Origin: Acidocella aminolytica 101 = DSM 11237
GTDB lineage: Bacteria; Pseudomonadota; Alphaproteobacteria; Acetobacterales; Acetobacteraceae
DNA: 57,701 nt
Direction of reading: 5' to 3'
Assembly: GCF_900129125.1 (NCBI RefSeq)
Contig: NZ_FQVJ01000025.1
Span: forward strand, 1 to 57,701
In this document: piece by piece, positions 14,574-45,027 of the stretch
Layout of the letters: the number at the start of each line of letters is the position of its first letter
How positions within the stretch are numbered: the stretch's first letter is position 1
Translations under genes and position numbers: made by a program
Notes under the pieces: generated by a model
Told to the model about the DNA's origin: nothing
Databases searched by the model: none
The model's input: only the letters and a program-made list of their open reading frames with translations

Positions 14574-14615
14574 ACCCTATGTGCGACGGTCCAAACGCGC
14601 CTTGATCGAGGTCAA
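14574..14615 (-). promoter_or_regulatory. FNR/FixK-type promoter of the groEL-mgtA-PPDK operon
   Basis: TTGATCGAGGTCAA at 14602-14615 matches the FNR/FixK consensus (TTGAT-N4-ATCAA) at 9 of 10 fixed positions. On the minus strand TAGGGT (14579-14574) is centred 32 bp from the box centre, the spacing of a class II FNR promoter with the box near -41.5. The same TAGGGT hexamer at the same spacing recurs before phaC. The box centre is 64 bp before the GTG at 14544. Confidence 0.7.
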
Positions 14616-14721
14616 TGTCGCACGATGAATACTCTTGACAAGGCAACCGACTGATATTGGACTCGCCTGTATTCAGAAATGCAGAATGGGGCAAACAGCA
14701 TTATCTGGCGGGCTGAGGATC

Positions 14722-15087
14722 ATGAACGAGGTTGGTAATCCGCAGAATGCGGAAATTCCGATAAGGGGAAGTTTCCATTTCGCTGCCATCGCGGAATCGA
14801 CGGACGATGCCATCGTCGGCAAGGATTTGAGCGGCAATGTTACAGCCTGGAACCGCGGCGCTCAGTTGATGTTCGGGTACAGTGCCGAAGAGATGATGGG
14901 GCAGTCCGTCACCCGCCTCATTCCGAAGCAGCGCCTCGGAGAAGAGGCGGAAATCTTAGAAAGAATACGAAGCGGTGAGACAATATCTCATTTTCTCACC
15001 GAGCGCCGCCGCAAGGACGGCACTATAATTGAGGTGATGCTGATCATTTCCCCCCGATCCGCGACGACCGGGGCAATTCACCACTGA
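14722..15087 (+). pseudogene. PAS-domain sensor fragment truncated by Tn3 remnant
   Basis: From the ATG at 14722 (GAGG upstream) a PAS domain of the sensor-kinase type reads IAESTDDAIVGKDLSGNVTA, WNRGAQLMFGY, then GQSVTRLIP and RRRKDGTIIEVMLIISP. At the run of six C near 15050-15055 the frame shifts: the expected PAS continuation IRDDRGN is in another frame. About 10 codons later the sequence becomes Tn3 transposase. Any kinase or GGDEF output domain is lost. The truncation is seen directly; the type of output domain is unknown. Confidence 0.7.
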
Positions 15088-15703
15088 GAAGCCGGGCACA
15101 TGGCCGCTGTTGGCGCCACTGATCGGCGACACCGTCGAAATCGCCGCAGTCCTAAACCAATGGTCGGAGTTGATGCGGTTGAAAGCTCCCATCAACGCCG
15201 GTACCGTCCTGCCCTCTGTCATCTTGCGGAAGCAGGCGGCCGCCGGTGTCGGAAACGCTCTGTCCCGGGCGCTACGAGCCTTGGGACGCATCGAGCGGAC
15301 CCTGTTCACCTTGCAATGGTTGTCCGACCCCGCTCTGCGTCAGCGCAGCCATGCCGGGCTCAACAAAGGCGAGGCCAGCAATGCCCTGCGTCGCGCCGTG
15401 TTCTTCCATCGCCAGGGAGAAATCCGCGACCGCACCTTCGAAAACCAGAGCTTCCGCGCCTCCGGGCTCAGCCTCATCACCGCCGCCATCGTCCACTGGA
15501 ACACAGTCTATCTCAACCAGGCCGTCCAGCACCTGCGTGCCCAAGGCACGGCCGTTCCCGATGATCTCCTGGCGCACGTCGCACCGCTCGGATGGGAACA
15601 CATCGCCCTGACTGGGGATTATGTCTGGAATCCCGCCAACCCCAATACCAGCTTCAGGCCGCTACGAGATGTTCGTGCTTCGTTCATACCCCGCGTCGCT
15701 TAG
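15072..15703 (+). pseudogene. Tn3-family transposase C-terminal remnant
   Basis: About 210 codons of the DDE domain end of a Tn3-family TnpA. It begins around TTEKPGTWPLLAPLIGD and includes the hallmark GRIERTLFTLQWLSDP, HAGLNKGEASNALRRAVFF, FENQSFRASGLSL and PLGWEHIALTGDYVW segments, ending at the natural stop. A whole Tn3 TnpA has about 1000 residues, so roughly four-fifths is missing. No resolvase gene or intact 38-bp end was found. It abuts the PAS fragment on the left and marks the left border of the arginine island. Confidence 0.85.
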
Positions 15704-16486
15704 CGGGCAATTTTTAACAGATCGTGCGGTGACCCCCTTATGTCCCCTCCGCCTGCACTCCAGCTAATCAACCATCGGTAAATTAAAATCTGCCCGTCCT
15801 GAGCAGTTATACCCCTGCCCTTCCTCCTCACCATCTCCATGATGGCGATGTCGGGCCGAACGACGCCCTATTCTCGACAAAACTATCGGCGGTTGCCAAG
15901 CCGCGATCAGTGAATCACTATGCTGGAAATTCAGCCAACCAGAAAATCATTCACCATTTGTATCCCGCTTTACAAAAAGCGGGCTATCGCCGTTTTGCGT
16001 CGCCCACTCCTCATTGCTTGGCCCCGCCCCTCCAGTTCCCAGCAACAGACCAACTGCTGTTCGTTGGACGAGCTTTGGTGTCTGGCCAGCCGACCACGAG
16101 CGAATGGCAAACATGTACGGCGGCTGTTGAAAACACACTACTTGTAATTCGACCGACAAAGAAATCAAGGTTACATGTAACCATGAGTTCATTGAACACT
16201 TTACGCACTACTCACCGGGAACTTCCAAGCTATTGTATTTCATGAAAAGTGGGCGCGGAACCAGGCTAGGCAATCTAACGCCTTTGCGGTACTCGCTTAC
16301 CATTTTAATAGCCGACGCGGAAGCGGATCTCCCGCAAGGTGTTTGAACAGACCAAGGGAACGTGCAGCGTGTTTCACGCCCGCCGACGGGCGTGAAACAG
16401 CACGTCGATTATTTGTCCATACTAGCGAGCTAACAGCCAGCTAGCAAACGAACCTCCGAGATACATCTGTCGTAGTGCTTCGATCG
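15704..16486. other. Gene-free stretch with one long hairpin
   Basis: 783 bp between the Tn3 remnant and the end of adiA. Short open frames here have no recognisable protein character, ribosome site or family. The only clear structure is the hairpin at 16361-16404. It is probably degraded transposon or flanking DNA. Confidence 0.5.
16361..16404. repeat. Long perfect hairpin downstream of adiA
   Basis: GTTTCACGCCCG (16371-16382), loop CCGA, then its exact complement at 16387-16398, with an outer CGTGC/GCACG pair (16361-16365 and 16400-16404). It lies about 85 bp past the adiA stop. Neither strand has a T-run after the stem, so a classical intrinsic terminator is unlikely; mRNA 3'-end stabilisation or a recombination site are alternatives. 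Confidence 0.6.
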
Positions 16487-18784
16487 CTATGGCGCAAGAA
16501 ACCTCATCGCGCGATACTCACCATCAAGAACCTCGATACCGTGTATATCATGCTCAAACGAAGGAAATTGCTGGTCGAACGCCTGCAGGGCTCCAAGATA
16601 GCGTAGTACCGGACTGTCTAATGCCCCCAGAGCCTCACCGGGCATCACCAACGGAATTCCCGGAGGATACGGAACAATAGCTGTAGCAGCAATACTGCTA
16701 GCCAGACCGCCGAGCCCGGTTGCGTCCCCCTCCTGGCGAATTAGTTGGTCATATGCCGTTGCTGGCGTAAGTATTGAGCGCGGTTCAACGTCATAGGCTA
16801 ATTGCAGCAATTCAGGAATTCGCCCATCGCGCATCGCGGTGAACATTTCCTCCCCGAGGTCCCGAAGCCCAACGGCTCCGTAACGCCCAGGGTGACTTTG
16901 CACCAACGCCGGCATAACCCGCGTAAGTGGGGCATTTGCGTCGTAATCACGCTTGAATTCTAGCAAAGCGTTGACCAGAGACCCCCACTTCCCTTTGGTC
17001 ACACCAATGGAAAACAGAAACAGGATCGAGAAGTTCGCAGTCTTTTCCGCTACAATGCCATGTTCAGCAAGATAAGCTGTCAGCAGTGAAGCTGGAATGC
17101 CATGTTTGCTAAGGCCCCCGGACAGGTCCATACCCGGTGTCGTCACTGTCACTTTGATTGGATCCAACATGCAATAGTCACGCTCGAGGTTCGGGAAACC
17201 GTGCCATTCAGCGCCGGGCTCAAGCATCCAGCAAGACTGCACCTGCGCCAGCATGTCAGGCGGAGCGTCGGCAAAAGCTAGTTCGGTGGAATCATCACGA
17301 ACACGGTCCGGTTGCCAGACACCGAAGAACCACGTGCCACGATCCATGAATTCGTTCGTCAGTCGGGCCATTGTCTGGCGGAATGAGATCGCTTCTGCAA
17401 TCGCTTCTCCAGTTAGCAACCTACCTCCCACGCCCTCCATCATCGCAGCGCTAACGTCGTTAGAAGCGATGATAGCGTATTGCGGCGAGGTTGAGGCATG
17501 CATCATGAAGGCTTCATTGAATCGACTATGCTCCACCGGCGCCCCTCCTTCACGTAGATGTATCATTGACGCCTGTGATAACGCGGCGAGCAGCTTATGC
17601 GTGGATTGGGTTGCAAATATTGTTGGACCATCACGTCGCGCTTGCGCCGGATCCCCCCGCATTGCAAAGCGGTCTTTGTAAATCGGGTTAAAGCGAGCGT
17701 AACCAAACCACGCTTCATCGAATAGAATGCGATCAACCGATGGGGCAAGAAGTTCTTCGACCCGCGGGGCGTTGTAACACAGCCCGTCATAGGTTGAATT
17801 TGTTATAATCGCGAGGGCTGGCTTTTCTTCTACTTTTGCTGCAAGAGGTGTGTCAGCTATACGATTCCTGATGCATTCAGCCGTCAATGATGACGGCGGG
17901 ATTGGTCCGATCAGACCAAGATGGTTACGATGCGGCATAAGATAAACAGGCACCGCTCCTGTGAGACTCAAGCCATGCTCAACTGATTTATGGCAGTTGC
18001 GATCGGCCAGAGCAATCTGCCCACGAGCGATACTGGCCATCATCACGACGCGGTTGGATGTCGAGGTGCCGTTGGTCACGTAATATGAGCGGTCAGCGCC
18101 GAATACCCGGGCGGCATAACGCTCTCCTTCTCCAATCGGTCCACTGTGGTCTAGCAGAGACCCCAACTCTCCTACCGAGATCGAAAGATCCGAACGGAAT
18201 AATGCCTCCCCAAAATAGTCATGAAAAACACGACCTGCTGGAGAGCGCAGAAACGCGGTTCCCCCCGTATGCCCAGGTGTATGCCAGGAATATTCGGCCT
18301 CTTTGGCAAAATTCATCAAGGCTCGAAACATTGGCGGCAACATCTGCGTCCGATACCTACGGATCGCAGCTACGATACGCTCACTAATAAACTCCATCGT
18401 GTCTTCCAGGAGCCAGATGAATTCATCCGCCTCGCTCATGACTTCCATAGGAATACGTGTTGCATCGCTACGCTCAGCCAGCAGAAAAACCGGTACATTC
18501 TCGTTGTGGGCCCGTAGGCTCCGCAGCAAGTCCATCGCATGGCGGTGCGCGGGATCTTCCTGCAGATCCCAGTCTAGAATCATCGCCTGAAGATGAGGAT
18601 TGGCGCCAATCACGGCCAGCGCGTCTTCGGCGGAGTTGGACAATATTGTTCCAACGCCATGATGCCGCAAATCCTCCACCAGTCTGCGTGAGGCACGGCC
18701 TATGGCATTAGCCTCGGCGAGCTTATCATTTACCACCAGTACGGACATGTCCGTAAACTGCGTCTCGATTTCCTGTTCTGTCAT
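16487..18784 (-). CDS. adiA: Acid-inducible-type arginine decarboxylase
   Basis: Large fold-type I PLP decarboxylase, 765 residues from the ATG at 18784 (GGAGGA six bases upstream). It has the N-terminal receiver-like wing domain (about 1-130), the PLP domain with STHKLLAALSQASMIH (Schiff-base Lys) and the C-terminal domain. Within the Orn/Lys/Arg family it follows E. coli AdiA rather than LdcI: RFNEAFMMHASTSPQYAI, FADAPPDMLAQVQSCW and FSIGVTKGKWGSLVNALLEF are AdiA-type segments. Reaction: arginine to agmatine plus CO2, consuming one proton. No AdiC-type arginine/agmatine antiporter is adjacent; the APC transporter at 24.6-26.1 kb may serve. Transcribed divergently from the ornithine decarboxylase across a shared 126-bp region with an FNR-like box. 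Confidence 0.9.
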   Translation of the reverse strand: MTEQEIETQFTDMSVLVVNDKLAEANAIGRASRRLVEDLRHHGVGTILSNSAEDALAVIGANPHLQAMILDWDLQEDPAHRHAMDLLRSLRAHNENVPVFLLAERSDATRIPMEVMSEADEFIWLLEDTMEFISERIVAAIRRYRTQMLPPMFRALMNFAKEAEYSWHTPGHTGGTAFLRSPAGRVFHDYFGEALFRSDLSISVGELGSLLDHSGPIGEGERYAARVFGADRSYYVTNGTSTSNRVVMMASIARGQIALADRNCHKSVEHGLSLTGAVPVYLMPHRNHLGLIGPIPPSSLTAECIRNRIADTPLAAKVEEKPALAIITNSTYDGLCYNAPRVEELLAPSVDRILFDEAWFGYARFNPIYKDRFAMRGDPAQARRDGPTIFATQSTHKLLAALSQASMIHLREGGAPVEHSRFNEAFMMHASTSPQYAIIASNDVSAAMMEGVGGRLLTGEAIAEAISFRQTMARLTNEFMDRGTWFFGVWQPDRVRDDSTELAFADAPPDMLAQVQSCWMLEPGAEWHGFPNLERDYCMLDPIKVTVTTPGMDLSGGLSKHGIPASLLTAYLAEHGIVAEKTANFSILFLFSIGVTKGKWGSLVNALLEFKRDYDANAPLTRVMPALVQSHPGRYGAVGLRDLGEEMFTAMRDGRIPELLQLAYDVEPRSILTPATAYDQLIRQEGDATGLGGLASSIAATAIVPYPPGIPLVMPGEALGALDSPVLRYLGALQAFDQQFPSFEHDIHGIEVLDGEYRAMRFLAP

Positions 18785-18810
18785 GGTTTGTCCTCCGGAA
18801 GTGGCGTCGC

Positions 18811-18879
18811 AAGATAAATGCTGTATTTGCTGTCGCCATTGACATTGCTCAATGTAGCCAAAAAACGGCCAGCTATAGT
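18811..18879. promoter_or_regulatory. Shared FNR-type divergent promoter of adiA and odc
   Basis: TTGACATTGCTCAA at 18839-18852 sits inside an 18-bp symmetric site, CATTGACATTGCTCAATG (18837-18854). On the plus strand TATAGT (18874-18879) is centred 31 bp from the box centre; on the minus strand TATCTT (18816-18811) is centred 32 bp away. Both start codons are 61-66 bp from the centre. One regulator dimer could thus act as a class II activator in both directions. Confidence 0.7.
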
Positions 18880-18910
18880 CCCAGCATTTCCATGAGGGGA
18901 GACATCCGCC

Positions 18911-21232
18911 ATGCGCTTCGAGGCCATGTTCCACTTTCTATTTGCGATCGACACCGACGCTATGGGGGATATCGAGCAGCAATATCTTGCAGGCATTAGA
19001 GCAGGCATCGCCGTACGAGATGTGCGTGTCAGTAACGCGAAGAACCTTGCAGATGCTCTGCTGGCTGTGACAGCCGACGCCTCGATTGGCGGCATCCTAG
19101 TGGAATGGGGAGGTGATAAGAAGTTTGGGGACGTTTCCGCATTTATCAAAGCGGTACGCCATCGCGGACTAGAAATGCCGATGTTTCTCCTAGCTCGTCG
19201 ACATAAGCTACAGGATATCGATGCTGATACGCTGCGTATTATTTCCGGTTATGTTTTTACTGCTGAAGACACCCCCGATTTTATCGCCAAAAATCTTGTC
19301 GATCATTTGGCGCGGTATGCAGAAAGTCTAAAAACGCCGTTTTTTGGAGCAATGGTCGACTACGCGGAGCAAGGTAACCAACTTTGGACGTGCCCAGGCC
19401 ATAATGGCGGGGTCTTCTATCGAAAGAGCCCTATCGGAAATATCTTTGTTCAACACATGGGTGAAGCGGTGTTCCGCAACGACCTCGACAATTCCGTGGT
19501 AGAGCTGGGTGATCTGTTGACACACGAAGGTCCTGCGCGACGAGCGGAGGCGGAATCGGCCGAAATTTTTGGTGCCGAGAGAACTTATTTTGTGCTCAAC
19601 GGAACGTCTACATCTAATAAGGTAGCCCTCTCAGCGATCATCGCCCCTGACGACCTAGTACTTTTCGACCGCAATAATCATAAGGCAGCTGTACATGGTG
19701 CATTGCTTTTCGGCGGGGGTATCCCAACCTACCTGGAAACAACGCGCAATGCCCATGGGTTGATTGGGCCTATTGCTCCATCAGCACTAGTCGAGCGCAA
19801 TATCAGGGATTCTATTCGTGCCAATCCGCTTGTAGTGGATAAGGCAAGAGCTGACCAGGCGCGACCGTTCCGAGCGTTAGTCTTAGAACAATGCACATAC
19901 GATGGAACTATCTATAATGTGGAGGTACTAATCAAGGCAATTGGACGTCTCTGCGAATATATCTTGTTCGACGAAGCCTGGGCCGGCTTCATGAAATTCC
20001 ATCCACTTTTTTCGCAGCATTTTGCTATGGGCCTTACTCTAGGACCGGACGATCCAGGCATCATTGCTACTCAATCAACGCACAAACAGCTTGCAGGATT
20101 CTCACAGGCTTCGCAGATTCATGTGAAAGATTCGCATGTGCAGGGGAATCGGCGCGTCGAGCCACGTCGTTTCAATGAATTATTCATGCTACACGCTTCG
20201 ACCTCTCCATTTTATCCGCTGTTCGCTTCACTCGACGTTGGCGCACAAATGATGAAAGGCCGTGCTGGTGAAGTGTTGTGGGATGACACAATCCGTATGG
20301 GTATCGAACTTCGAAAAAAGCTACGGCATTTAAAAAAGGACTTGGCTTCAGCCGCGCACGCGCCAGAAGAGGCTTGGTTCTTCGACCCTTTCGTTCCGCA
20401 CGATGTTGGTGGTATGGCATGGGAGGACCTCCCGACTGACGAGCTTGCTCAAAATCGCGATGCTTGGACACTCGGGGTGAACGGAAGTTGGCATGGCTTC
20501 CCAGGTCTCTCGGAAAATTATGCAATGACCGACCCAAATAAGCTCACGCTCTTGACCCCAGGCTTCAATCGAGAAACCGGCAATTATGCGCCACATGGCG
20601 TGCCGGCCCCTATTCTCGCCGAATTCCTGAGGGAGCGGCGTATTGTTCCCGAGAAGAACGACTTCAACTCAATTCTGTTCCTCCTCACGCCTGGGCTTGA
20701 GGCAAGCAAGGCCGGTACACTGCTTGCCGCATTGGTAGCCTTCAAGGAGCTGCATGACGCCAATGCAAAGCTGGACAATGTAATGCCGGATTTCACTAGG
20801 CGCTTTGATAAGCGTTATGCGGGGACTGGCCTTCGTGACCTCTGCGCCGAACTACACGCCTTCTACCGCACCCATCAGGCAAGCCGACTACAACGCGAAA
20901 TGTTCAAAGCAGAGTATCTGCCCGAGCCAGTTCTACCGCCACGTACAGCCTGGGAGAAGCTGCTACGCAATGAGGTGGACTATATTCCCATCTCCGAGAT
21001 AGAGGGACGAGTAGCAGCGACGCTCGCTCTGGTCTATCCACCGGGGATCGGCTTGATACTACCTGGTGAACGATATGGCAGCCAAACTAGCCCTTTACTA
21101 AATTATCTCCGTCTAGTGGAAGAGGCGAGCAACCGCTTTCCAGGCTTCGAGAATGAGATCCAGGGGATATATCGGGAGACGGATACAGGAGGTCGCATCG
21201 TTCTGCACACCTATGTGGTGAGGGATAGTTGA
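18911..21232 (+). CDS. Ornithine decarboxylase (SpeC/SpeF type)
   Basis: Second large PLP decarboxylase, 773 residues from the ATG at 18911, with wing domain (about 1-130), PLP domain and C-terminal domain. The Lys motif is STHKQLAGFSQASQIH, and the segments VLFDRNNHKAAVHGALL, LHASTSPFYPLFASLDV and VPEKNDFNSILFLLTPG follow E. coli SpeC/SpeF rather than AdiA. Probable reaction: ornithine to putrescine plus CO2. It stands immediately before arcABC, whose product ornithine it could decarboxylate, making a second proton-consuming step. Lysine decarboxylase is the main alternative. Downstream, the arcA promoter box overlaps its stop codon. Confidence 0.85.
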   Translation: MRFEAMFHFLFAIDTDAMGDIEQQYLAGIRAGIAVRDVRVSNAKNLADALLAVTADASIGGILVEWGGDKKFGDVSAFIKAVRHRGLEMPMFLLARRHKLQDIDADTLRIISGYVFTAEDTPDFIAKNLVDHLARYAESLKTPFFGAMVDYAEQGNQLWTCPGHNGGVFYRKSPIGNIFVQHMGEAVFRNDLDNSVVELGDLLTHEGPARRAEAESAEIFGAERTYFVLNGTSTSNKVALSAIIAPDDLVLFDRNNHKAAVHGALLFGGGIPTYLETTRNAHGLIGPIAPSALVERNIRDSIRANPLVVDKARADQARPFRALVLEQCTYDGTIYNVEVLIKAIGRLCEYILFDEAWAGFMKFHPLFSQHFAMGLTLGPDDPGIIATQSTHKQLAGFSQASQIHVKDSHVQGNRRVEPRRFNELFMLHASTSPFYPLFASLDVGAQMMKGRAGEVLWDDTIRMGIELRKKLRHLKKDLASAAHAPEEAWFFDPFVPHDVGGMAWEDLPTDELAQNRDAWTLGVNGSWHGFPGLSENYAMTDPNKLTLLTPGFNRETGNYAPHGVPAPILAEFLRERRIVPEKNDFNSILFLLTPGLEASKAGTLLAALVAFKELHDANAKLDNVMPDFTRRFDKRYAGTGLRDLCAELHAFYRTHQASRLQREMFKAEYLPEPVLPPRTAWEKLLRNEVDYIPISEIEGRVAATLALVYPPGIGLILPGERYGSQTSPLLNYLRLVEEASNRFPGFENEIQGIYRETDTGGRIVLHTYVVRDS

Positions 21233-21270
21233 TCCTGCTCAATGCAGAGCCGAAAATCTCCGCCTAGCAT
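21229..21270 (+). promoter_or_regulatory. FNR-type promoter of arcABC
   Basis: TTGATCCTGCTCAA (21229-21242) overlaps the odc stop. TAGCAT (21265-21270) is centred 32 bp downstream of the box centre and the arcA ATG is 65 bp from it, the same geometry as the adiA/odc and groEL boxes. FNR/ANR control of arc operons is established in Pseudomonas. Confidence 0.7.
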
Positions 21271-21300
21271 GCGCACCAAACAACCAACGGAGCGCCATTC

Positions 21301-22533
21301 ATGACTTCCCCCTTTCCTGATCCTGGTGTCTATTCGGAAATTGGCAAACTGCGAGAGGTTCTTGTTCATCGACCCGAGCTCAGTCTGAGCCGCCTGACCC
21401 CGGGAAACTGCCATGAACTGCTCTTTGACGATGTAATCTGGGTGAAGAAGGCACGCCAAGAACATGACGCCTTCCTTGATGCAATGCGCGAACGCGGCAT
21501 CGTTATCATCGAGTTTGGCGAGGCACTAGCGGAAACCTTAGCTGATCCAGCGGCCAGGAGATGGCTGCTGGACAAGCGCCTTGGAACGGCAGAAAGCGCT
21601 ACGGGCGTCGATGTCGAACTGCGCGCCTGGCTTGAGGAAATGCCTCCCATCGAGCTTGCTAAATATATGATCGGGGGTATCGCGCGGGCGGAACTGCCCT
21701 TTACACCACACGGACTCTTCTCATTGACCCGTGCCCAGCACGAGTTCATATTGCCTCCCCTCCCCAACCAGCTTTTCACCCGTGATACCTCTTGCTGGGT
21801 AGGTAACGGTGTTTTCATTAACCCCATGCACTGGCCCGCGCGGCAGCTGGAAGCGGCGAATGCGGCAGCAATCTACACATTCCACCCGCGGTTCAAAGCA
21901 GCGAAATTTCACAAATACTTTAATGCCGCCGAAGAACACGCAGGATCCCTCAGCCTTGAGGGCGGGGACGTGATGCCGCTCGGGAATGGGACCGTGCTCA
22001 TCGGTATGGGAGAACGCTCAACGCCTCAGGCCGTTTCACAATACGCGCGCCGTCTCTTTGCAAAGGGCGAAGCAACACGCGTGATTGCGGGCTTGATGCC
22101 AAGTGACCGGTCTTACATGCATCTTGACACAGTGTTTTCCTTCTGTGACCGCGATTTGGTAACAGTCTATCCAGATATAGTGCACCGGCTGCGTGCCTTC
22201 TCGCTTTATCCCGATACAGGAAAACGACACTTAAGGATCGTCGAGGAGTCAAAAAGCTTCCTGGATACCGTCGCCGAAGCTGTTGGGGGTCACTTACGGA
22301 TCATAGAAACCGGGGGAGACACGTATGAAGCCGAGCGTGAGCAATGGGACGACGGCAACAATGTCTTCGCGCTAGAACCGGGCGTTGTCATTGCCTATGA
22401 CCGGAATGTTTATACAAACACCCTGCTGCGAAAGGCAGGCATCGAAGTTATCACAATCGAGGGCGCTGAGCTCGGTCGTGGGCGCGGCGGTGCGCATTGC
22501 ATGACCTGCCCCATTCGCCGTGACCCGATTTAA
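21301..22533 (+). CDS. arcA: Arginine deiminase
   Basis: 410 residues, normal ADI length. Hydrolyses arginine to citrulline and NH3, the first step of the arginine deiminase pathway. Guanidino-modifying fold motifs visible: [33 protein letters not shown] (catalytic His/Asp) and near the C-terminus [16 protein letters not shown] with the nucleophilic Cys. GGAG lies upstream of the ATG at 21301. It starts 68 bp after odc and ends 13 bp before arcB. The released ammonia neutralises acid. Confidence 0.95.
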
Positions 22534-22546
22534 AGGAGAATTAGCC

Positions 22547-23542
22547 ATGTCACATCTTCGCGGCCGCAGCGTTTTGTCGCTTGAAAATTTCTCGCAGAGT
22601 GAAATCCTCGATCTTCTAAAACTTGGGGCCGAACTGAAAGCAGCCAAGCGTGGAGGTTTCGAAGTGGCACGCCTTACTGGCAAAACCATAGCCCTTATTT
22701 TCGAAAAAGATTCCACCCGTACACGCAGCGGCTTTGAAGTGGCTGCCTACGACCAAGGGGCGCATGTAACTTATATGGGTCCCAGCGGCAGCCATATTGG
22801 CCATAAAGAAAGCGTAAAAGATACCGCCCGCGTGCTTGGCCGTATGTTTGACGCAATTGAGTTTCGGGGCTTCGCGCAGGAGGATGCAGAAACCTTAGCG
22901 CAATATTCAGGCGTGCCGGTTTATAATGGTCTCACGGATGACGCTCACCCCACGCAGGTTCTGGCTGATTTCATGACAATGCCGGAATTTTGCAACAAAC
23001 CCCTACCTGACATCAGCTTCGCATTTATGGGCGATGGCGGCAACAACATGGCGTTATCTCTTGCTATGGGGGCGGCCAAGCTTGGAATGAAGATGTGCGT
23101 GGGCGCGCCGGAAGTGCTCTGGCCAGCACAGGAGGTCATCAACCGCATCAAAACTGTCGCAGCAGAAAGCGGGGGGCAAATAAGTTTTGAGAGTGATCCT
23201 CAAAGGGCCGTTAAGGGTGCGGACTTCCTTTATACTGATGTCTGGCTTTCGATGGGTGAGGACGAACAGCTGTGGGGTGAAAGAATCAAGCAACTTATGC
23301 CTTATCAGATCAATACGGCTCTCATGGCGGCAACGGGTAATCCTGCCGCGAAGTTTATGCACTGTCTGCCCGCATTTCATAACACGGAAACGAGTGTAGG
23401 CCGCGACATCGAAAAGCGCTTTGGTATCTCCGCAATGGAGGTCAGTGAGGAAGTGTTTGAATCCGAGCGGTCTATCGTGTTTGATCAGGCTGAAAATCGA
23501 ATGCATTCGATAAAGGCGATCTTGGTCGCGACCCTCGGCTGA
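22547..23542 (+). CDS. arcB: Catabolic ornithine carbamoyltransferase
   Basis: 331 residues from the ATG at 22547, which has AAAGGAGAA just upstream. The carbamoyl-phosphate motif STRTRSGFE is near residue 57, [18 protein letters not shown] follows, and the C-terminal [16 protein letters not shown] holds the ornithine-binding Cys. In this context it runs phosphorolysis of citrulline to ornithine and carbamoyl phosphate. The length and the neighbours arcA and arcC argue for the catabolic ArcB rather than the anabolic ArgF. The stop overlaps the arcC start (TGATG). Confidence 0.94.
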
Positions 23543-24474
23543 TGCATATTGTCGCGGCCCTTGGGGGCAATGCGCTGTTGCGTCGGGGCGAAGCGCCGAC
23601 GCCCGACGCACAAGAGGCGAATATCAAGCAAGCTGCTGCCGCGCTGGCACAGCTGATTACTGCTGGTCATCGTCTCACGCTCACGCACGGCAACGGCCCA
23701 CAGGTGGGGTTGCTGGCATTGCAGGCAGAAGCTGGACCGAAAGGCGCGGCCCAGCCCCTAGACAGCCTGGATGCCGAAAGCGAAGGCTGGATTGGCTATC
23801 TGCTGGAGCAAGAGTTGGCGAATGCCTTACCGCCCGATACCGCAATCGCCACGCTACTCACGCGCATTGAGGTTGATGCGAATGATCCAGCCTTTACGTC
23901 ACCGAGTAAGCCAATTGGCCCAATTTACGACGAAGCAACGGCACAGGAGCTAGCGGCAACACGCGGTTGGAGCATCGCGCAAGATGGTAAAGCTTGGCGC
24001 CGCGTTGTTCCCTCTCCTGCTCCCGTTTCAATACTCAACGCGGCCAGCATCGAACGGCTTACGCAAGCGGGTACGTTAGTGATTTGTGCCGGTGGCGGCG
24101 GTATTCCCGTTGTTCGGGACAAGGCAGGCAAGTGGCACGGCAAGGAAGCAGTAATCGACAAAGACGCAGCGAGTGCGCTTCTCGCCGAACAGATCGGCGC
24201 GGACTTCTTTCTCATGCTGACGGATGTAGATGCGATCTATCTGGATTATGGTTCTAGCCAGCAAAGGGCATTGAGCAAGGCAACACCGAAAATGTTGCTA
24301 AGCTATGACTTCGCTACAGGCAGCATGGGGCCAAAAGTAGAAGCGGCATGCCGGTTTGTGCAGCACACCAATTGCTCGGCGGCGATCGGGCGGATGGAGG
24401 ATGCCAGGGCGATCATTGACAGAAAGGCCGGAACGCGCATCCAGATGGAACTGTTAGCCAACAAGCCGAGCTGA
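23542..24474 (+). CDS. arcC: Carbamate kinase
   Basis: 310 residues, usual size. Converts carbamoyl phosphate and ADP to ATP, CO2 and NH3, the energy-yielding step. Amino-acid-kinase fold signatures: IVAALGGNALLRRGE at the N-terminus, LTHGNGPQVGLLALQAE, CAGGGGIPVV and a C-terminal GSMGPKVEAACRFV. It begins in the arcB stop (TGATG), so translation is coupled, and ends before a strong bidirectional terminator. Confidence 0.95.
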   Translation: MHIVAALGGNALLRRGEAPTPDAQEANIKQAAAALAQLITAGHRLTLTHGNGPQVGLLALQAEAGPKGAAQPLDSLDAESEGWIGYLLEQELANALPPDTAIATLLTRIEVDANDPAFTSPSKPIGPIYDEATAQELAATRGWSIAQDGKAWRRVVPSPAPVSILNAASIERLTQAGTLVICAGGGGIPVVRDKAGKWHGKEAVIDKDAASALLAEQIGADFFLMLTDVDAIYLDYGSSQQRALSKATPKMLLSYDFATGSMGPKVEAACRFVQHTNCSAAIGRMEDARAIIDRKAGTRIQMELLANKPS

Positions 24475-24558: not shown

Positions 24559-26055
24559 TTAACCGATGCTTACCGTGCCATTTCCGATGAGGATAGCCGA
24601 AATCACGGCTGCAGCCACCAAAATAAACGCCGCAACAGCCTCTCTGCTATTGAAGGCGGCCGCAGCGCGCCCTTGCTCCTTTTGGGCATACCAATAAAAC
24701 GGAATGCCGATCGCATAAACAATTGTCGACAAAAGAACAAATTGAAGCCCCGCGGCATAAAGCAGCCACACCGCGTACACAGAACCAAGCATCCCGCTTA
24801 AAAGTGCGGCAGTCTTACTCTCAGTGCCATGTGCCGTAACGAAGGTCGGATTTCCCGCATAGCGAAACAGAAACGCCGTGCTTGCGAAATAGGCCGGAAG
24901 AATCATCACCCCCGTGATCGCAACCATCCAGAGCCAAGCATTATTGGCAAAGACAACCACGAACATGGATACCTGCATAACGATCGTAGAGAGAAGCAGG
25001 GATGGAGCCGGCGAATGACTGCTGTTTTCACGCGCCAGAAATTTGGGAAATACGCCGTCCTTTGCGCCCTCAAAAGGAAGCTCAGCTACAAGAATAGTCC
25101 AGGCCAGCCAGCAGCTCAGAAGTGAGACGAGCACGGAGAGGATCATGAAAATGGCGCCCCAGTGCCCAACGATATGCTGTAACACGTAAGCGGCAGATGG
25201 ACCATTCAGTGCCGCAAGTTCTTTCTGAGACATAACCCCAAACGGCAGAACCGATACCAGAACATAAAGCAGCAGACAGATAAGCAACCCAAGAAATGTC
25301 GCGCGCCCAACATCCTCGGTCTTGCGTGCGCGCCCAGAGACAACCACAGCGCCTTCTATCCCGATGAAAACCCAGAGTGTGACCATCATCGTGCTTTTCA
25401 CTTGGGTTAGAATATTGCCTAAATGACCCACCCTGCCCCAGATATCTGTCGTGAAGCTGGCGCTGTTCAGAAAAACCGCGAGAATAACAATCAAGGCGAT
25501 AATGGGTACAATCTTAGTGGCGGTCGCCACGGCATTTAAGAATGCCGCCTGCTTCACGCCAGCGAGCACGACAAAATACATTCCCCAAATTAAAATAGAA
25601 CCTCCAAGGATGGCTTCCCAGGATTTACCACTGATCAGGCTGGGGAAGAAAAATCCTAGCGTCTGCATCACCAATACAGCGAAGCCGACATTACCGAACG
25701 CAGAACTAAGCCAATAGCCCCAGGCCGAGTTAAAGCCAGCGTAACGGCCAAACCCTTCGCGCGCATAAGTGTAGATACCGGCGGTTAAGTCCGGCCGCTT
25801 GTCGGCCAGAGTCCGGAATGTGTTGGCCAGGAAGTACATGCCAACACCTGTAATGATCCAGGCGATGACAATTGCACCCAGCCCAGCGCCTGCGGCCATA
25901 TTCTGCGGCAGGTTGAACACACCACCGCCGATCATTGACCCCACAACCATTCCGAGGAGGCTGAAAAGACCTACGGCGCGCGTACCTGGCTGAGCCGTCT
26001 CCGTTCTGGCAGGTGGTGGCCCCGATCGGCCACCCGGCTGGACTACGTCGTTCAT
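24559..26055 (-). CDS. arcD: APC-family arginine/ornithine antiporter
   Basis: 498 residues from the ATG at 26055, preceded by a near-perfect AAGGAGGG. Twelve or so hydrophobic segments; the first carries the APC signature GMVVGSMIGGGVFNLPQNM and the sequence resembles the basic amino acid/polyamine antiporter group (ArcD of APC type, YdgI-like). Likely role: arginine in, ornithine (or agmatine/putrescine) out, feeding the convergent arcABC genes and both decarboxylases. It has its own promoter with a consensus FNR box and a palindrome over the -10. Exact counter-substrate cannot be read. Confidence 0.85.
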   Translation of the reverse strand: MNDVVQPGGRSGPPPARTETAQPGTRAVGLFSLLGMVVGSMIGGGVFNLPQNMAAGAGLGAIVIAWIITGVGMYFLANTFRTLADKRPDLTAGIYTYAREGFGRYAGFNSAWGYWLSSAFGNVGFAVLVMQTLGFFFPSLISGKSWEAILGGSILIWGMYFVVLAGVKQAAFLNAVATATKIVPIIALIVILAVFLNSASFTTDIWGRVGHLGNILTQVKSTMMVTLWVFIGIEGAVVVSGRARKTEDVGRATFLGLLICLLLYVLVSVLPFGVMSQKELAALNGPSAAYVLQHIVGHWGAIFMILSVLVSLLSCWLAWTILVAELPFEGAKDGVFPKFLARENSSHSPAPSLLLSTIVMQVSMFVVVFANNAWLWMVAITGVMILPAYFASTAFLFRYAGNPTFVTAHGTESKTAALLSGMLGSVYAVWLLYAAGLQFVLLSTIVYAIGIPFYWYAQKEQGRAAAAFNSREAVAAFILVAAAVISAILIGNGTVSIG

Positions 26056-26153: not shown

Positions 26154-26196
26154 AACGTTATAACGTTCCCGTGAACTTCACCTTGATCCGCATCAA
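26154..26196 (-). promoter_or_regulatory. Consensus FNR box and -10 palindrome before arcD
   Basis: TTGATCCGCATCAA (26183-26196) matches TTGAT-N4-ATCAA at every fixed position. On the minus strand TATAAC (26163-26158) is a good -10, centred 29 bp from the box centre. It lies inside a perfect 14-bp palindrome, AACGTTATAACGTT (26154-26167), which could be a repressor operator. The leader to the ATG would be about 95 nt. Confidence 0.75.
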
Positions 26197-38142: not shown

Positions 38143-38340
38143 AGTCAGAACTGCCGAGTTTTACGCGCCACCAGCCCAGTAAAACGCCTTGATTCCCAAG
38201 CTGTTTGAACGCGTGGACAACTTTTCCTACTGGATTTTGGTGCGATGCCGCATAAAAGCCCTGTACCACTCGGGTCAAATCCAGCCCCTTCCCCGGGCTT
38301 AACCCATGACGCAGCCGCGCTTCCCTGCTATGGGCCGTTC

Positions 38341-39336: not shown

Positions 39337-39340
39337 CCAG

Positions 39341-39820: not shown

Positions 39821-39863
39821 GCCACATTCTGGCAGGTTGGTGTCCGACAATCCACCCGCGCCA

Positions 39864-41606
39864 TCATGACGTGAGTACATAAGTACCCGGGGCGTCAGCC
39901 AGCGGCACGAGCCCTTTGCCAACCGCTCCCATCGAAGGCGGCGGTACCCGCGCGGGCTTGCTGTGTGAGGCCAACCATCTTTGCCAGGCGTGCCACCACG
40001 ACCCGTCGCGCGGCATTGCGGCGGCGGCCCAGCTTTCGGGGTCTGTATAACGCTGCCCGGGCTGGCGTGTTTCGATCTGATATGAGCCAATCCCAGCATC
40101 AGGCGGGTTGATAATTCCGACATTGTGCCCGCCTGACGTCAACACAAAGGTCAGCTCCGTGTCGGTGAATAAAGACAGTTTATAAACCGATCGCCACGGG
40201 GCGATATGGTCGCGGGCCGTAGCCAGAAGAAAAATCGGCACGCGGATATCATGCAACGCAATTACCCGTCCCTCGACCGCGAAACGCCCCGCGGAGAGGC
40301 GGTTTTCAAGGAACAGCCCTCGCAGGTATTCGCTATGCATACGCGCGGGCATACGCGTTTGGTCAGAATTCCACGCACCGAGAGCGGTCATGGGCTCACG
40401 CTCGCCCAGAATGTAGGTCTTCAGCATCTTTGACCAAATCAGCTCATTCGACCGTAACGCGTTAAAGGCCGCTGACATTTGCTGTGTGTCGAGATAGCCT
40501 TGGTCCCACATCAAGTCTTCAAGCAGTGCTACCTGCCGTTCATCCAGAAACAACAGCAAATCCCCAGCGTCGGCAAAGTCAGTCTGGGCGGCGAGCAACG
40601 TAACACTTGCCAGACGCTCATCATGCTCTCGTGCCATTGTCGCCGCTGCAATCGCTAGGATTGTACCGCCAAGGCAATAGCCACATGCATGGATTTTCCG
40701 CTCTGGCAGAATGAGCTCAACAGCATCCAGTGCCGCCATCACACCGCCGAGGCGGTAATCATCCAGGCTCACGTCACGGTCTCTATGGCTGGGGTTTTTC
40801 CAGGAGATGATAAAAACCGTATGGCCGCGCGCGACGAGCCAGCGTACCAGGGAAGCTTCGGGCGAGAGATCAAATATATAATATTTCATGATCCACGCGG
40901 GAACAATCAAAACCGGCTCGGCAAAGACCGTCTCCGTATCCGGCGCGTATTGGATCAACTCCATCAGATCGTTTCGCATCACGACCTTGCCCGGTGCGGT
41001 GACGATATTTTCACCAATGACGAAGGCTTCCGCCCCCGCCGGTGGTTCACCGGACAATTCCCGGCCCAAATCCTCCCACCAGTTCTGCATACCCCGCAGC
41101 AGTGAAACGCCGCCTGATTGCGCGGTTTTGCTCAGGATGGTCGGGTTTAGCCAGGGAATATTAGCGGGCGACCACATATCCGCCGCTTGGCGCATCAAGA
41201 ACTCCATCTCCCCTTGCGTCCTCTGCGCCACGCCCGGGACATGCCGCGTGGCCTCCAACCACCAATCCTCAGACATCATGTGCAGCTTGGCAAAGGTATT
41301 AAACGGCCACTTCGTCCATTCGGGAGAGCTAAAGCGGCGGTCCTCAGTTGGTTTCACGGCCCGTTTGTCGGCTTCATTCGCCATGGCGCGTGGCAAATCC
41401 AGGGCAAAGCGTCCGGATTCAATCCAGGCTCGCATCACGAGTTCGGCCTGCTTACCCGGCGAGATGGCAAGCTGCTCGGCCCATTCCGCCCAGGCTTCCA
41501 GCATGACCCGGTAAGAGACACCCCGCGTAATGCGTGCCCCCGCCGCCCGTAAGGCACGGTCATAGGTCTTAAATTGCGGGAATATCGCATCGCTTTGCGG
41601 ACACAT
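39864..41606 (-). CDS. phaC: Class I poly(3-hydroxyalkanoate) synthase
   Basis: 580 residues, normal for class I. N-terminal PhaC_N domain (WWLEATRHVPG, WSPANIPWLNP), alpha/beta-hydrolase core with the lipase-like box GYCLGGT (nucleophilic Cys near 310), Asp in ATARDHIAPW and His in SGGHNVGIINPP; VPAWIMKYYIFDLSP and VFIISWKNP are diagnostic. Polymerises hydroxyacyl-CoA into storage granules. phaA/phaB are not nearby. A strong FNR-like promoter precedes it, consistent with storage of reducing power when oxygen is short. Confidence 0.93.
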   Translation of the reverse strand: MCPQSDAIFPQFKTYDRALRAAGARITRGVSYRVMLEAWAEWAEQLAISPGKQAELVMRAWIESGRFALDLPRAMANEADKRAVKPTEDRRFSSPEWTKWPFNTFAKLHMMSEDWWLEATRHVPGVAQRTQGEMEFLMRQAADMWSPANIPWLNPTILSKTAQSGGVSLLRGMQNWWEDLGRELSGEPPAGAEAFVIGENIVTAPGKVVMRNDLMELIQYAPDTETVFAEPVLIVPAWIMKYYIFDLSPEASLVRWLVARGHTVFIISWKNPSHRDRDVSLDDYRLGGVMAALDAVELILPERKIHACGYCLGGTILAIAAATMAREHDERLASVTLLAAQTDFADAGDLLLFLDERQVALLEDLMWDQGYLDTQQMSAAFNALRSNELIWSKMLKTYILGEREPMTALGAWNSDQTRMPARMHSEYLRGLFLENRLSAGRFAVEGRVIALHDIRVPIFLLATARDHIAPWRSVYKLSLFTDTELTFVLTSGGHNVGIINPPDAGIGSYQIETRQPGQRYTDPESWAAAAMPRDGSWWHAWQRWLASHSKPARVPPPSMGAVGKGLVPLADAPGTYVLTS

Positions 41607-41633
41607 GTCTGAAACTCCGGGCAGCTGGAGGGA

Positions 41634-41675
41634 ACCCTACCGACCCTTTCGGGCGCAGGCATTGATTCCGGTCAA
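41634..41675 (-). promoter_or_regulatory. FNR/FixK-type promoter of phaC
   Basis: TTGATTCCGGTCAA (41662-41675) with TAGGGT (41639-41634) centred 32 bp away; box centre to ATG is 63 bp. The hexamer and all spacings equal those of the groEL operon promoter. Confidence 0.7.
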
Positions 41676-41685
41676 GCAGAGCACC

Positions 41686-43776
41686 TCATTCATAACGAAG
41701 GGCTTCTATGGGGTTCAGCCGAGCCGCCTTGCGCGCCGGATACAAGCCAAAAAACACCCCCACCGCGACGGAAAACAGAAAACCGCCGAAAATCGCCAAA
41801 AACGAAACCGGTGCTGGCCATCCCGCAACAAGGGTGATGGTGGCGGAAACCGCAATGCCCAGCAAAATCCCGGCCAGACCACCCGTAACGCTGAGAAACA
41901 CTGCCTCGGCGAGGAATTGCAGGAGCACATGCAGCCGTCGCGCGCCAATAGCCATGCGCAGGCCAATCTCCCGCGTACGCTCAGTTACCGAGACCAGAAG
42001 GATATTCATGATACCAATGCCGCCAACCAACAGGGCAATGGACGCAACTGCGGCCAGCAGCAGCGCCATGACGCGGCCAACGCTTTGCGCAGCCTCCGCG
42101 ATCTGACTGAGATTATGAACTGAAAAATCCTGTATAGCCCCGGGCTTGATCTGATGCCTGGCCATCAACGTCTGCGTTACCTCCCGCATAGCCACGCCAA
42201 CATTCAGCGGTGAGTTGGCCTGGATATAAAGTTGGTTAACATAACCGGTGAGCCGTGGCTGAAGGTCATAAGGGTTTGGCCATGGCGGGTAAGGCCAGTT
42301 GAGTTGCGTCTGTTGCTGCGTCGGCGCCGCCGCACCAAGCACGCGCTGCTCGGCAGTGGTAAAAGGGATCATCACGACGTCATCCTGGTCCTGACCAAAG
42401 GCAGTCTGACCTTTGCTGCTTAGCAGCCCGATCACCCGGAGCGGCGTGCTTCTCACCAATATCGTCGCGCCAATGGGGCTTTCGCCCGCCGGAAAAAGCT
42501 CCCGGTAAACCGTTCTGCCGATCAGCGCGACGAGAGCGCCGTGTTCCTCATCCGCTGGCGTGAACAAATGCCCGGAAGTGACGGACCAGTTGGTCATGGT
42601 CGTGTAGTGCAGGCTTACGCCCATGACGCTTGTGGCCCAGTTACGGTTTCCATAGCGGATTTGCGCGAGCGAGCGGATAACGTAGCTGACGCTGCCAACA
42701 GCCGGATTCTGGCGTTTAATCGCCTCCGCATCCGCCACGGTAAGAGTAGACGCGCTGCCAAAGCCACCATGCGCGCCGCTGCTGGTGGCGGCACCAGGCA
42801 AAACCACAAGCAAATTCGTCCCTAAACTTTCAATTTGCTTACGCACCGCTCGGTTCGCCCCCTGCCCCACCGCAACCATGGCAACCAGCGCGGCCACACC
42901 AATGAACACTCCAAGAATGGTCAAGGCCGACCGCATCCGGTTGCGCGCCAAAGCCTGGATCGCGGCACCTGAGATCATCCGCCCAAAAGCCAAAATTGAA
43001 GTTGCGGGAAAGCGCCGTGCTGGTTCATGTGCCGGCCGCTTCGGCAGGACACGTGATTGTGGCAGCGGGCCCTTGCACTTGTCAGAAACAATCTCGCCAT
43101 CCCGCATGGTCAGCACCCGGTCGGCATAGTCTGCAATGTCCGCCTCATGGGTGATTACCAGAATGGTCACGCCCTGTTTCCGGTTTAGGGCCATAAGCGT
43201 ATCCATGATCTCATGGGAAGTACGGGTATCGAGATTGCCGGTGGGTTCGTCCGCTAACAACAGGTCGGGCGCGTTGATCAAGGCGCGCGCAATGGCCACC
43301 CGCTGCTGCTGCCCGCCGGAGAGCTGCCCAGGTGTATTATTTTCACGCCCCGTCAGCCCGAGATTAGCCAATGCCTCGAGGGCACGTTGGCGCCGGGCCG
43401 GGCCACTCACCGGTCCTTCTGAGGTGTAATAGAGCGGCAAAGCCACATTCTCAGCTGCACTGGTGCGCGCCAGGAGGTTAAAGCTCTGAAACACAAAGCC
43501 CAACCGCTGGCTGCGGATGCTGGCAAGTGCCGGTTCCGGCAATACCGCCACATCAACGCCCTCAAACCAATATTGACCACTGCTTGGCTGGTCGAGGCAC
43601 CCGAGAATAGCCATCAGAGTGGATTTCCCGGAACCTGACGCGCCCATAATGGCCACGAACTCACCTTTTTCAATGGTCAGACTGACGCGGCTAAGCGCCT
43701 GAACCTCCACATCTCCGGTATGGTAGATCCGGGATATATCCTGCAGCCTGAGCAGAGGTTCACTGGCCCGGGTCAA
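41686..43776 (-). CDS. macB: MacB-type ABC transporter (ATPase-permease fusion)
   Basis: 696 residues. ATPase domain about 1-225: Walker A MGASGSGKSTL, signature LSGGQQQRVAIARAL, Walker B LLLADEPTGNLD. Then four membrane helices and the large periplasmic domain of the MacB/FtsX type (first helix about 290-310, last three about 570-680, MNILLVSVTERTREIGLRMA between). The start is a TTG overlapping the macA stop (TTGA) with AAAGGAGC upstream. With MacA and an outer-membrane channel elsewhere it would export macrolides, peptides or other molecules; the substrate is not readable. Confidence 0.92.
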   Translation of the reverse strand: MTRASEPLLRLQDISRIYHTGDVEVQALSRVSLTIEKGEFVAIMGASGSGKSTLMAILGCLDQPSSGQYWFEGVDVAVLPEPALASIRSQRLGFVFQSFNLLARTSAAENVALPLYYTSEGPVSGPARRQRALEALANLGLTGRENNTPGQLSGGQQQRVAIARALINAPDLLLADEPTGNLDTRTSHEIMDTLMALNRKQGVTILVITHEADIADYADRVLTMRDGEIVSDKCKGPLPQSRVLPKRPAHEPARRFPATSILAFGRMISGAAIQALARNRMRSALTILGVFIGVAALVAMVAVGQGANRAVRKQIESLGTNLLVVLPGAATSSGAHGGFGSASTLTVADAEAIKRQNPAVGSVSYVIRSLAQIRYGNRNWATSVMGVSLHYTTMTNWSVTSGHLFTPADEEHGALVALIGRTVYRELFPAGESPIGATILVRSTPLRVIGLLSSKGQTAFGQDQDDVVMIPFTTAEQRVLGAAAPTQQQTQLNWPYPPWPNPYDLQPRLTGYVNQLYIQANSPLNVGVAMREVTQTLMARHQIKPGAIQDFSVHNLSQIAEAAQSVGRVMALLLAAVASIALLVGGIGIMNILLVSVTERTREIGLRMAIGARRLHVLLQFLAEAVFLSVTGGLAGILLGIAVSATITLVAGWPAPVSFLAIFGGFLFSVAVGVFFGLYPARKAARLNPIEALRYE

Positions 43777-44906
43777 GGCTGAATAGCTCCTTTCTGGTCG
43801 CCGATAATAACCTCATCACCTGGTTTCACGGCGCCACTGAGAATTTCGGTATACACATCGTCATCAAGCCCGGTTGTCACCGGCTCCGGCTCCGGCTTGC
43901 CCGCGCGCAGCACCCAAAGCCGCGCTCCTGAACGACCGGGGGCTCCAGTCGGCGCGTATTGTAGAGCTTGGTCTGGAACACGGATCACATCCTGCCGTTC
44001 GGAAGTGATAATCTGCACGGACGCTGTCATGCCTGGCTTCAGGGCCAGATCCTGATTGTCCACATCGACTATAACATCATAGGTAACAACATTCTGAACC
44101 GTTTGCGGTGACTGGCGCACTTGCGCAACGACGCCATGAAACACACGCTCGGGAAAAGCCAGCACAGTGAAACTCACCCTCTGCCCGTCTCTAATAGCAC
44201 CTATATCCCCTTCCGCGACATTGGTATCCACCTGCATTTTGGTGAGGTCAGTAGCGATCAGAAACAAGGTCGGCGTCTGAAATGAGGATGCAACCGTCTG
44301 TCCCACAGTGACATTGCGCGACACCACAACACCATTCACAGGCGAGACGATGTTTGTATAATCGAGATCCACCTGCGCGGCGGCAAGTGCAGCTTGATCG
44401 GCCTGAATTTGCGCTTTATCGAGCAGAACCTGAGCCTTATCCACCTCAAATGCCGCCTGCGCGGCGTCCGCCGCCTCCGCTGAGATTGAGGATTGCTTCA
44501 GCAGCATCTGATCACGTTGATTTGTGATCGCTGAATAGCGAAGTTTGGCCTCATCTTTGGCAAGACTGGCATGGTCCACAGCCAGCTTCGCTGTATCCTG
44601 ATCAACAATAGCCTGATAAGCGCGAGGATCGATTTTGGCGCAAATCTGCCCCACCTTCACAACGGTATTATAGTCGCAATAAAGCGCTTGAATAATGCCA
44701 GACACAGCCGCGCCAACGATAATCGTGAGTTTGGGGTTCACCGTACCGGTGGCCGTGACCGTACGGGTGACAGCGCCGCGTGAAACTGTTTCCGTTTGAT
44801 AGCGCAGGCCGGGTTGCCGATTGGCATGCCACCAGAGCATCGCACCAAAAGCAATTAGCAATAAGGCTGTCATGCCTGAATAGCGCCACAGCTTCTTGCC
44901 CTGCAT
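43773..44906 (-). CDS. macA: MacA-type periplasmic adaptor (HlyD family)
   Basis: 377 residues; one membrane anchor (about 11-28, MTALLLIAFGAMLWW), lipoyl half-motifs VTATGTVNPKLTIIVGAAVSG and DYTNIVSPVNGVVVSRNVTVG flanking a helical hairpin (about 95-180), beta-barrel and membrane-proximal domains following. Connects MacB to an outer-membrane factor. No TolC-like gene is in the window. Divergent from marC across 179 bp with an FNR-like box. Confidence 0.9.
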   Translation of the reverse strand: MQGKKLWRYSGMTALLLIAFGAMLWWHANRQPGLRYQTETVSRGAVTRTVTATGTVNPKLTIIVGAAVSGIIQALYCDYNTVVKVGQICAKIDPRAYQAIVDQDTAKLAVDHASLAKDEAKLRYSAITNQRDQMLLKQSSISAEAADAAQAAFEVDKAQVLLDKAQIQADQAALAAAQVDLDYTNIVSPVNGVVVSRNVTVGQTVASSFQTPTLFLIATDLTKMQVDTNVAEGDIGAIRDGQRVSFTVLAFPERVFHGVVAQVRQSPQTVQNVVTYDVIVDVDNQDLALKPGMTASVQIITSERQDVIRVPDQALQYAPTGAPGRSGARLWVLRAGKPEPEPVTTGLDDDVYTEILSGAVKPGDEVIIGDQKGAIQP

Positions 44907-44986
44907 TTAACCGCTCATCCGTTCATGCCTTCTCCACCCAAAGAGAGATCAGAACAAACGTCTAACATGCCCATCGGGCTCTGCTG

Positions 44987-45027
44987 TTGACGCAGGTCAA
45001 TCAACGGGGTGAAGCTTGTTTTGCAAT
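44987..45027. promoter_or_regulatory. FNR-type site between macA and marC
   Basis: TTGACGCAGGTCAA (44987-45000), a perfect TTGAC-N4-GTCAA dyad. On the plus strand TGCAAT (45022-45027) is centred 31 bp downstream, pointing to marC; the minus-strand candidate TAGACG is poorer. Confidence 0.6.

Follow-up and report, generated by a model that had tools for sequence, protein, structure and literature searches.

The stretch of DNA analyzed here, referred to as the window, is a contig of 57,701 bp (C38, NZ_FQVJ01000025.1) from Acidocella aminolytica 101 = DSM 11237, whose genome comprises 3,964,820 bp in 109 contigs. The window carries genes for arginine fermentation, amino acid decarboxylation, polyhydroxyalkanoate (PHA) synthesis, and a chaperonin, and these are preceded by palindromic boxes of the form TTGA-N6-TCAA. 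A first-pass annotation had listed six strong boxes, at 14602, 18839, 21229, 26183, 41662, and 44987, and a weaker one at 3431, and all seven are present at these positions. With a probability of roughly 0.8, the six main boxes are sites for a dimeric activator of the FNR family, most likely the FnrL-like protein that the same genome encodes on contig C42. They are not equally strong. The full consensus, TTGAY-N4-RTCAA, has a pyrimidine after TTGA and a purine before TCAA, and it is found at 14602, 26183, 41662, and 44987, but the boxes at 18839 and 21229 have such a flank on one side only, as does the box at 3431.

The arginine deiminase pathway locus of the window is complete, with arcA, arcB, arcC, and an arginine/ornithine antiporter gene standing together. 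Upstream of arcA, two divergent genes for Orn/Lys/Arg decarboxylases share one box, TTGACATTGCTCAA (18839..18852). The leftward gene (16487..18784, minus strand) is closest to an arginine decarboxylase model (950 bits; cut-off 1167) and has the -10 hexamer TATCTT (18811..18816, minus strand) 29.5 bp from the box center. The rightward gene (18911..21232, plus strand) is closest to an ornithine decarboxylase model (754 bits; cut-off 794), and its -10 hexamer, TATAGT (18874..18879, plus strand), lies one base closer to the box. The box before arcABC, TTGATCCTGCTCAA (21229..21242), overlaps the last four bases of this upstream decarboxylase gene, including the stop codon, so this site is not strictly intergenic, although all sites had been described as such. 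The -10 of arcA, TAGCAT (21265..21270, plus strand), is again 29.5 bp from the center. It is followed on the plus strand by arcA for arginine deiminase (21301..22533), arcB for ornithine carbamoyltransferase (22547..23542), and arcC (23542..24474), whose product belongs to the amino acid kinase family and is a carbamate kinase by context. The arcD gene, for a basic amino acid/polyamine antiporter, is located on the minus strand (24559..26055), behind the full-consensus box TTGATCCGCATCAA (26183..26196) and the -10 TAACGT (26155..26160, minus strand), which is also 29.5 bp from the center. Its product exceeds the cut-off of the antiporter model TIGR00905 and remains below that of the narrower TIGR03810. 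The arcD start is most likely the ATG at 26055, 134.5 bp from the box center, whereas the gene caller gave 25950. A perfect 14-bp palindrome, AACGTTATAACGTT (26154-26167), overlaps the arcD -10 and is possibly the site of a second regulator; no exact copy of it occurs in 333 fetched loci.

The full-consensus box TTGATCGAGGTCAA (14602..14615) stands before a predicted leftward chaperonin operon, and the full-consensus box TTGATTCCGGTCAA (41662..41675) precedes phaC, the gene for PHA synthase (39864..41606, minus strand). Both promoters have the same hexamer, TAGGGT, at 14574..14579 and 41634..41639 on the minus strand, and in both it is located 29.5 bp from the center, which confirms the identical spacing described earlier. 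A further full-consensus box, TTGACGCAGGTCAA (44987..45000), lies between the genes for a macA-like membrane fusion protein (43773..44906, minus strand) and a marC-family membrane protein (45086..45730, plus strand). Its target had been given as marC or macA. On the macA side, a weak -10-like hexamer, TAGACG (44959..44964, minus strand), is found at 29.5 bp, and the box probably serves macA together with the macB-like ABC transporter gene (41686..43776, minus strand). The less likely target, marC, was rejected as the main one: there is no -10 on that side, and its homologues in the genus are 30–37% identical, with a box at 0 of 29. The weaker box, TTGAGCGACATCAA (3431..3444), is present as described, but a -10 is lacking at the usual offset, and the nearest called start is 319.5 bp away. 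It was rejected as a promoter and is probably a chance occurrence.

The density of the boxes exceeds chance expectation. The seven sites of the window compare with a mean of 1.05 in 100 shuffles (standard deviation 1.09, maximum 4). Genome-wide, the pattern occurs 84 times, or about once per 47 kb, against 16 occurrences of the pattern read backwards. At uniform density, the window would hold 1.22 of these sites (Poisson P 2.8e-4, or about 0.02 after correction by a factor of 69). The position of the sites relative to genes was judged using a simple codon-usage gene caller rather than a standard annotation, which gave 80.5% coding over 502,193 bp, window included, and hence a non-coding share of about 19.5% of the fetched sequence. 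By this measure, 27 of the 31 full-consensus sites are intergenic genome-wide, as are 15/32 sites with one good flank and 6/21 with neither. This graded response and the full-consensus class are the decisive evidence. The first-pass annotation had proposed equal density inside genes as the refuting test, and for full-consensus sites, the genome-wide comparison brought no refutation. Two of the 16 reversed sites match the reversed full consensus when read by eye, and both are genic.

The geometry of the predicted promoters is regular. At class II FNR promoters, the box is centered at -41.5, and a -10 hexamer is therefore expected 29.5 bp from the box center. TANNNT is found at exactly this distance in 10/39 oriented promoters of the genome, with a mean of 0.43 per other offset, and it is absent at this distance from 72 orientations of genic sites and from 41 orientations without a downstream start. 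Five of the six main boxes have it, namely 14602, 18839 (leftward), 21229, 26183, and 41662; a -10-like hexamer had been claimed for each, but 44987 lacks a clean one. The distance to the start codon is also restricted. Intergenic boxes with a good flank on one or both sides have 43 starts at distances of 20–320 bp, and 12 of these fall 58–70 bp from the box center, against 1.7 expected (P 8e-8). Within the window, the values are 64.5 bp at 14602, 61.5 and 65.5 bp on the two sides of 18839, 65.5 bp at 21229, and 62.5 bp at 41662, in agreement with the approximately 61–66 bp noted earlier for four of the six boxes. The literature mentions an Fnr site located 41.5 bp ahead of a transcription start (PMC5398030).

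A fitting regulator is encoded in the genome. Five loci exceed the HTH_Crp_2 cut-off, and four of them read as CRP/FNR-type proteins; L005, which is above the cut-off and reads as GntR-type, and L006–L012, which are below it, were left out of the count. The protein encoded on C42 contains CEDCGARHLGLC (CX2CX7C); further along its sequence, another cysteine aligns with the last one of FNR, and its recognition helix reads ETVSR. It has both the four cysteines for a predicted [4Fe-4S] cluster and the ExxSR helix of a sensor. Its best NCBIfam model is FnrL (NF045989). The protein appears to work like FnrL and is not filed as that equivalog. The other three regulators, all below the cut-offs of their models, are two FixK-like proteins that lack the cysteine motif (C26, C91) and one FtrB-like protein (C8), encoded beside narG.

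Homologues of the C42 protein with at least 55% identity occur in 24/31 genomes of the genus, its own included. CX2CX7C was read in 21 of these 24 loci, and the other 3 gave no readable frame. An exact box lies upstream of the FnrL-like gene in 15/24 loci, against 0/24 for the reversed pattern. Such genus counts, here and for phaC, groEL, and marC, are rough, as loci cut at contig ends are mis-anchored and the search reaches no further than 400 bp from the matched start and misses boxes that stand before the first gene of an operon. Of the 15 exact boxes at FnrL-like genes, 10 are centered 34–50 bp from the matched start and 5 at 102–328 bp. The C42 gene itself has a one-mismatch box, TTGATATGGATCAG, at 34.5 bp. 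Two relatives have the FnrL-like gene as the immediate neighbor of arcA, and a box lies between the two genes (G013:C26:88282-89007 and G015:C51:43378-44103). Because boxes stand in front of FnrL-like genes, and also between such a gene and arcA, the box can be tied to the FnrL-like protein.

The boxes are conserved at the arginine and decarboxylase genes. A clear arcA is present in nine relatives of the genus; G020 and G039, with partial matches of 31–42%, were left out. Eight of the nine have an exact box before the lead gene of the arc/decarboxylase cluster, and the ninth (G017) has a one-mismatch box there. Gene order differs among these relatives: the box-led gene is arcD in G012, G014, and G009 and arcA in G003, G013, and G015; in G018, and in G006, where the cluster is divided between two contigs, a shared decarboxylase/arcD region is boxed. 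The box between divergent decarboxylase genes is repeated in G003 and in a named locus from a metagenome-assembled genome (MAG), L013. In named genomes, the best 80 of 590 arcA matches were considered, the closest being a Rhodospirillales MAG (68%), Devosia psychrophila (66%), and a Hyphomicrobiales MAG; these matches, and FnrL as the best model for the C42 protein, fit an alphaproteobacterial genome. Twenty of these 80 loci have an exact box no more than 350 bp from the lead gene, and 44 have a box with at most one mismatch, whereas the control gave 0 and 5, respectively; lead-gene starts are approximate here. Exact boxes are found in 13 of the 34 loci assigned to Alphaproteobacteria from their record titles and in 7 of the 46 others. 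Because the FNR-type box stays with the arc/decarboxylase cluster through rearrangement, there is good evidence that the arginine deiminase and decarboxylase routes, both acid- and energy-saving, serve jointly in response to one signal. By comparison, groEL homologues in the genus have no box (0/29).

The regulon is not limited to the window, which is ruled out by the 84 genomic sites and by classical low-oxygen genes elsewhere. Outside the window, 43 genes are adjacent to a box, and a Pfam scan covered 34 of them. Boxes lead the genes for the respiratory nitrate reductase alpha subunit narG (C8:9300), cytochrome bd subunit I, cydA (C53:77916), HemN (C107:63454), cytochrome b561 (C47:173566), and a CBS-BON protein beside the FnrL-like gene (C42:84802). 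A gene group with several boxes at C68:99232-103278 encodes a phosphoribosyltransferase and a CBS protein and includes a second phaC and a gene for a phaB-like reductase. On C28, a small gene led by a box is followed by a third phaC, with which it appears to form an operon. Of the five PhaC-like matches in the genome, three (C38, C68, C28) are preceded by a box, either immediately or at the head of an apparent operon. Some box-adjacent genes, namely those for a catechol dioxygenase, a flavin reductase, and a porin, fit less well. FixO (PF02433) is absent from the genome, and there is consequently no sign of a cbb3 oxidase, which is the usual FixK target; the fixNOQP target expected of a FixK-cbb3 regulon was not detected by this marker, and cydA has a box. 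The earlier proposal of one oxygen-limitation regulon is supported by a fitting regulator, classical genes, and conservation, with the qualification that the regulon reaches beyond the six promoters; the window appears to hold the amino-acid part of a genome-wide regulon. As a side observation, six TTGA-N6-TCAA sites are crowded into 4.5 kb at C68:99232-103735 (L178), five of them intergenic, where a host-attachment-family protein is also encoded.

The predicted chaperonin operon behind the box at 14602 lies entirely on the minus strand. Its lead gene (14197..14544) has a GTG start and encodes a 115-aa protein that has no NCBIfam match and, scanned as a longer frame, no Pfam match. It is followed by a second cpn60/GroEL (12558..14177), 56% identical to the other copy of the genome (C91), a nitroreductase-family protein (11983..12543), a P-type cation ATPase (9248..11890), a 643-aa protein (7249..9180), and a part of pyruvate phosphate dikinase (PPDK; 5645..7252). 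The 643-aa protein alone has no Pfam match, and its family is PhoU-like at the C-terminus, as indicated by a profile match and by DUF47 in 7/9 members. The PPDK part, which comes after it, comprises the N-terminal and phosphohistidine regions, covers positions 16–523 of the 865 in TIGR01828, and stops before the C-terminal third. Homologous PhoU-like and PPDK genes are adjacent in 8/8 loci from six other families (8/10 other genomes with a match), and because the pair is adjacent in all 8, a functional unit is suggested. Beside the box, at 14722-15703 on the plus strand, a PAS-domain fragment and then the C-terminal part of a Tn3-family transposase are encoded, which are probably remains of a mobile element.

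From these observations, we infer a course of binding, activation, and physiological response that is familiar from FNR systems. When oxygen falls, a [4Fe-4S] cluster held by the cysteines of the FnrL-like protein would allow dimerization, and the dimer would bind TTGAY-N4-RTCAA. With the -10 located 29.5 bp from the center, and the box thus at about -41.5, RNA polymerase would be recruited as at class II FNR promoters. The arcABC and arcD genes would then supply ATP and ammonia without oxygen through the arginine deiminase route. The pair of pyridoxal decarboxylases, whose genes would be transcribed divergently from a single box, would consume protons, and one of them may also clear the ornithine released by the arginine route. 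PHA synthase could act as an electron and carbon sink. The predicted accessory operon would add the chaperonin, nitroreductase, cation ATPase, PhoU-like protein, and PPDK fragment, and macAB is probably also a target.

Several results weigh against this reading or narrow it. The FnrL-like protein reaches 161 bits against a curated NF045989 cut-off of 300. The TANNNT hexamer is found at 29.5 bp in only 2/17 oriented promoters of relatives and in 0/19 named arc loci, and because of this, the exact -10 placement is a feature of this genome and not of the family. The hemN box center is only 25.5 bp from the called start, a spacing that misfits class II activation unless this start is wrong. No exact box was found at the decarboxylase genes of G013 and G015. 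Directly before phaC homologues, a box is present in 1/27 cases, the 71% homologue in G003. The chaperonin of the window has no match above 57% in 30 relatives, and no exact box occurs in the 8 fetched stretches from other families that contain the PhoU-like/PPDK pair, so neither is supported as a conserved target. Finally, the undivided set of TTGA-N6-TCAA sites is intergenic in 48/84 cases and the reversed control in 7/16. For this reason, the undivided set is not decisive: it is not clearly more intergenic than the control, and AT-rich palindromes somewhat prefer intergenic DNA. Together with the chance-like behavior of sites without either flank, and with the box at 3431, which looks like a chance site, this is what can be said for the boxes being chance AT-rich palindromes. 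Such an explanation is very improbable, and for the six main boxes as a set it is contradicted by the fixed distances to the -10 and to the start codon and by conservation in relatives, although a single box, such as that at 44987, could be due to chance.

It is more conceivable, though still unlikely, that the boxes, though real, have as their main reader another member of the CRP/FNR family, namely one of the FixK-like proteins or the FtrB-like protein, and that the signal is nitric oxide, a two-component input, or something else other than direct oxygen sensing. The role of oxygen is read from the regulator, and all four CRP/FNR-type proteins of the genome have a recognition helix of the ExxSR or ExxTR type, so that the others could read the same box; two of them score best against FixK. 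In Dinoroseobacter shibae, some promoters are common targets of FnrL and three Dnr proteins (PMC5398030). The boxes at the FnrL-like genes of the genus, the position of such genes next to arcA in G013 and G015, and the absence of FixO point the other way. Somewhat less likely again is the view that the operons are independent responses to acid, arginine, or storage needs, which have a common sensor site and little functional unity. It agrees with the variable order of the arc genes and with the finding that neither the phaC box nor a close relative of the chaperonin operon is general in the genus, but several different arrangements of the arc and decarboxylase genes keep them clustered and boxed. 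Control by an FnrL-like activator accounts best for these observations: the FNR regulon is real, partly lineage-specific, and of a well-known kind.

Several known systems are comparable. In Pseudomonas, an FNR-type box for Anr precedes arcD in 20/28 species and hemN in all those analyzed, and P. extremaustralis has a box at groEL (PMC6588701). The boxes at arcD, arcA, hemN, and the chaperonin operon described here are similar, but arcD and arcABC are separate boxed units in A. aminolytica, and two decarboxylases and phaC are added to what that source describes. On pSymA of Sinorhizobium meliloti, a 37-kb region contains the arc operon and a putative Fnr/Crp gene; it is one of three regions with co-changing transcripts and is linked to an Fnr/FixK-like motif (PMC5596199). 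The highest motif density was reported for a 120-kb region rather than the arc region, and the transcripts changed in mutants of the polyhydroxybutyrate cycle under nitrogen limitation, a change with oxygen not being shown there (PMC5596199). A. aminolytica shares the predicted link of arc genes with such a motif, in a genome without FixO. The FnrL system of D. shibae, from the Rhodobacterales, is similar in having one Fe-S FnrL, paralogues without such cysteines, and TTGAT-N4-ATCAA sites (PMC5398030). The target sets differ, and the term “arginine deiminase” does not appear in the main text of that paper.

In Burkholderia cenocepacia, arginine and ornithine decarboxylases are raised in micro-oxia and cytochrome bd is among the responding genes, and no arginine fermentation genes were found in strain H111 (PMC3759415). 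In A. aminolytica, genes for decarboxylases and cytochrome bd are box-led. The lxa region encodes a heat shock protein, a BON protein, a flavin/nitro-reductase, an acetoacetyl-CoA reductase, and six universal stress proteins (PMC6127331). The resemblance to lxa is one of gene type only, and unlike lxa, the window yielded no universal stress protein among 40 scanned frames. The arcABC genes have been described as essential for symbiosis (PMC7268258), and the accessible text of PMC8510549 contains nothing on the control of arc genes in this group.

A wider proposal can be made only tentatively, and it is possible rather than probable. In this genus, an FnrL-type sensor might have joined arginine fermentation, two proton-consuming decarboxylases with one two-way box, and PHA synthesis, without a cbb3 oxidase and with a species-specific chaperonin/PhoU-like/PPDK operon, into one survival programme for oxygen limitation, with the box moving to whatever gene heads the cluster after rearrangement. 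If true, the combination would be lineage-specific, and no description of it as a unit was found in the literature consulted. The analysis as a whole extends and does not change the known biology of Anr, FnrL, and FixK, and its result is a testable genome-wide low-oxygen regulon for this lineage. Apart from the regulon, the window contains a 699-aa protein in which a Glycoside hydrolase family 5 domain is fused to a Hint_2 domain (47088-49187, plus strand).

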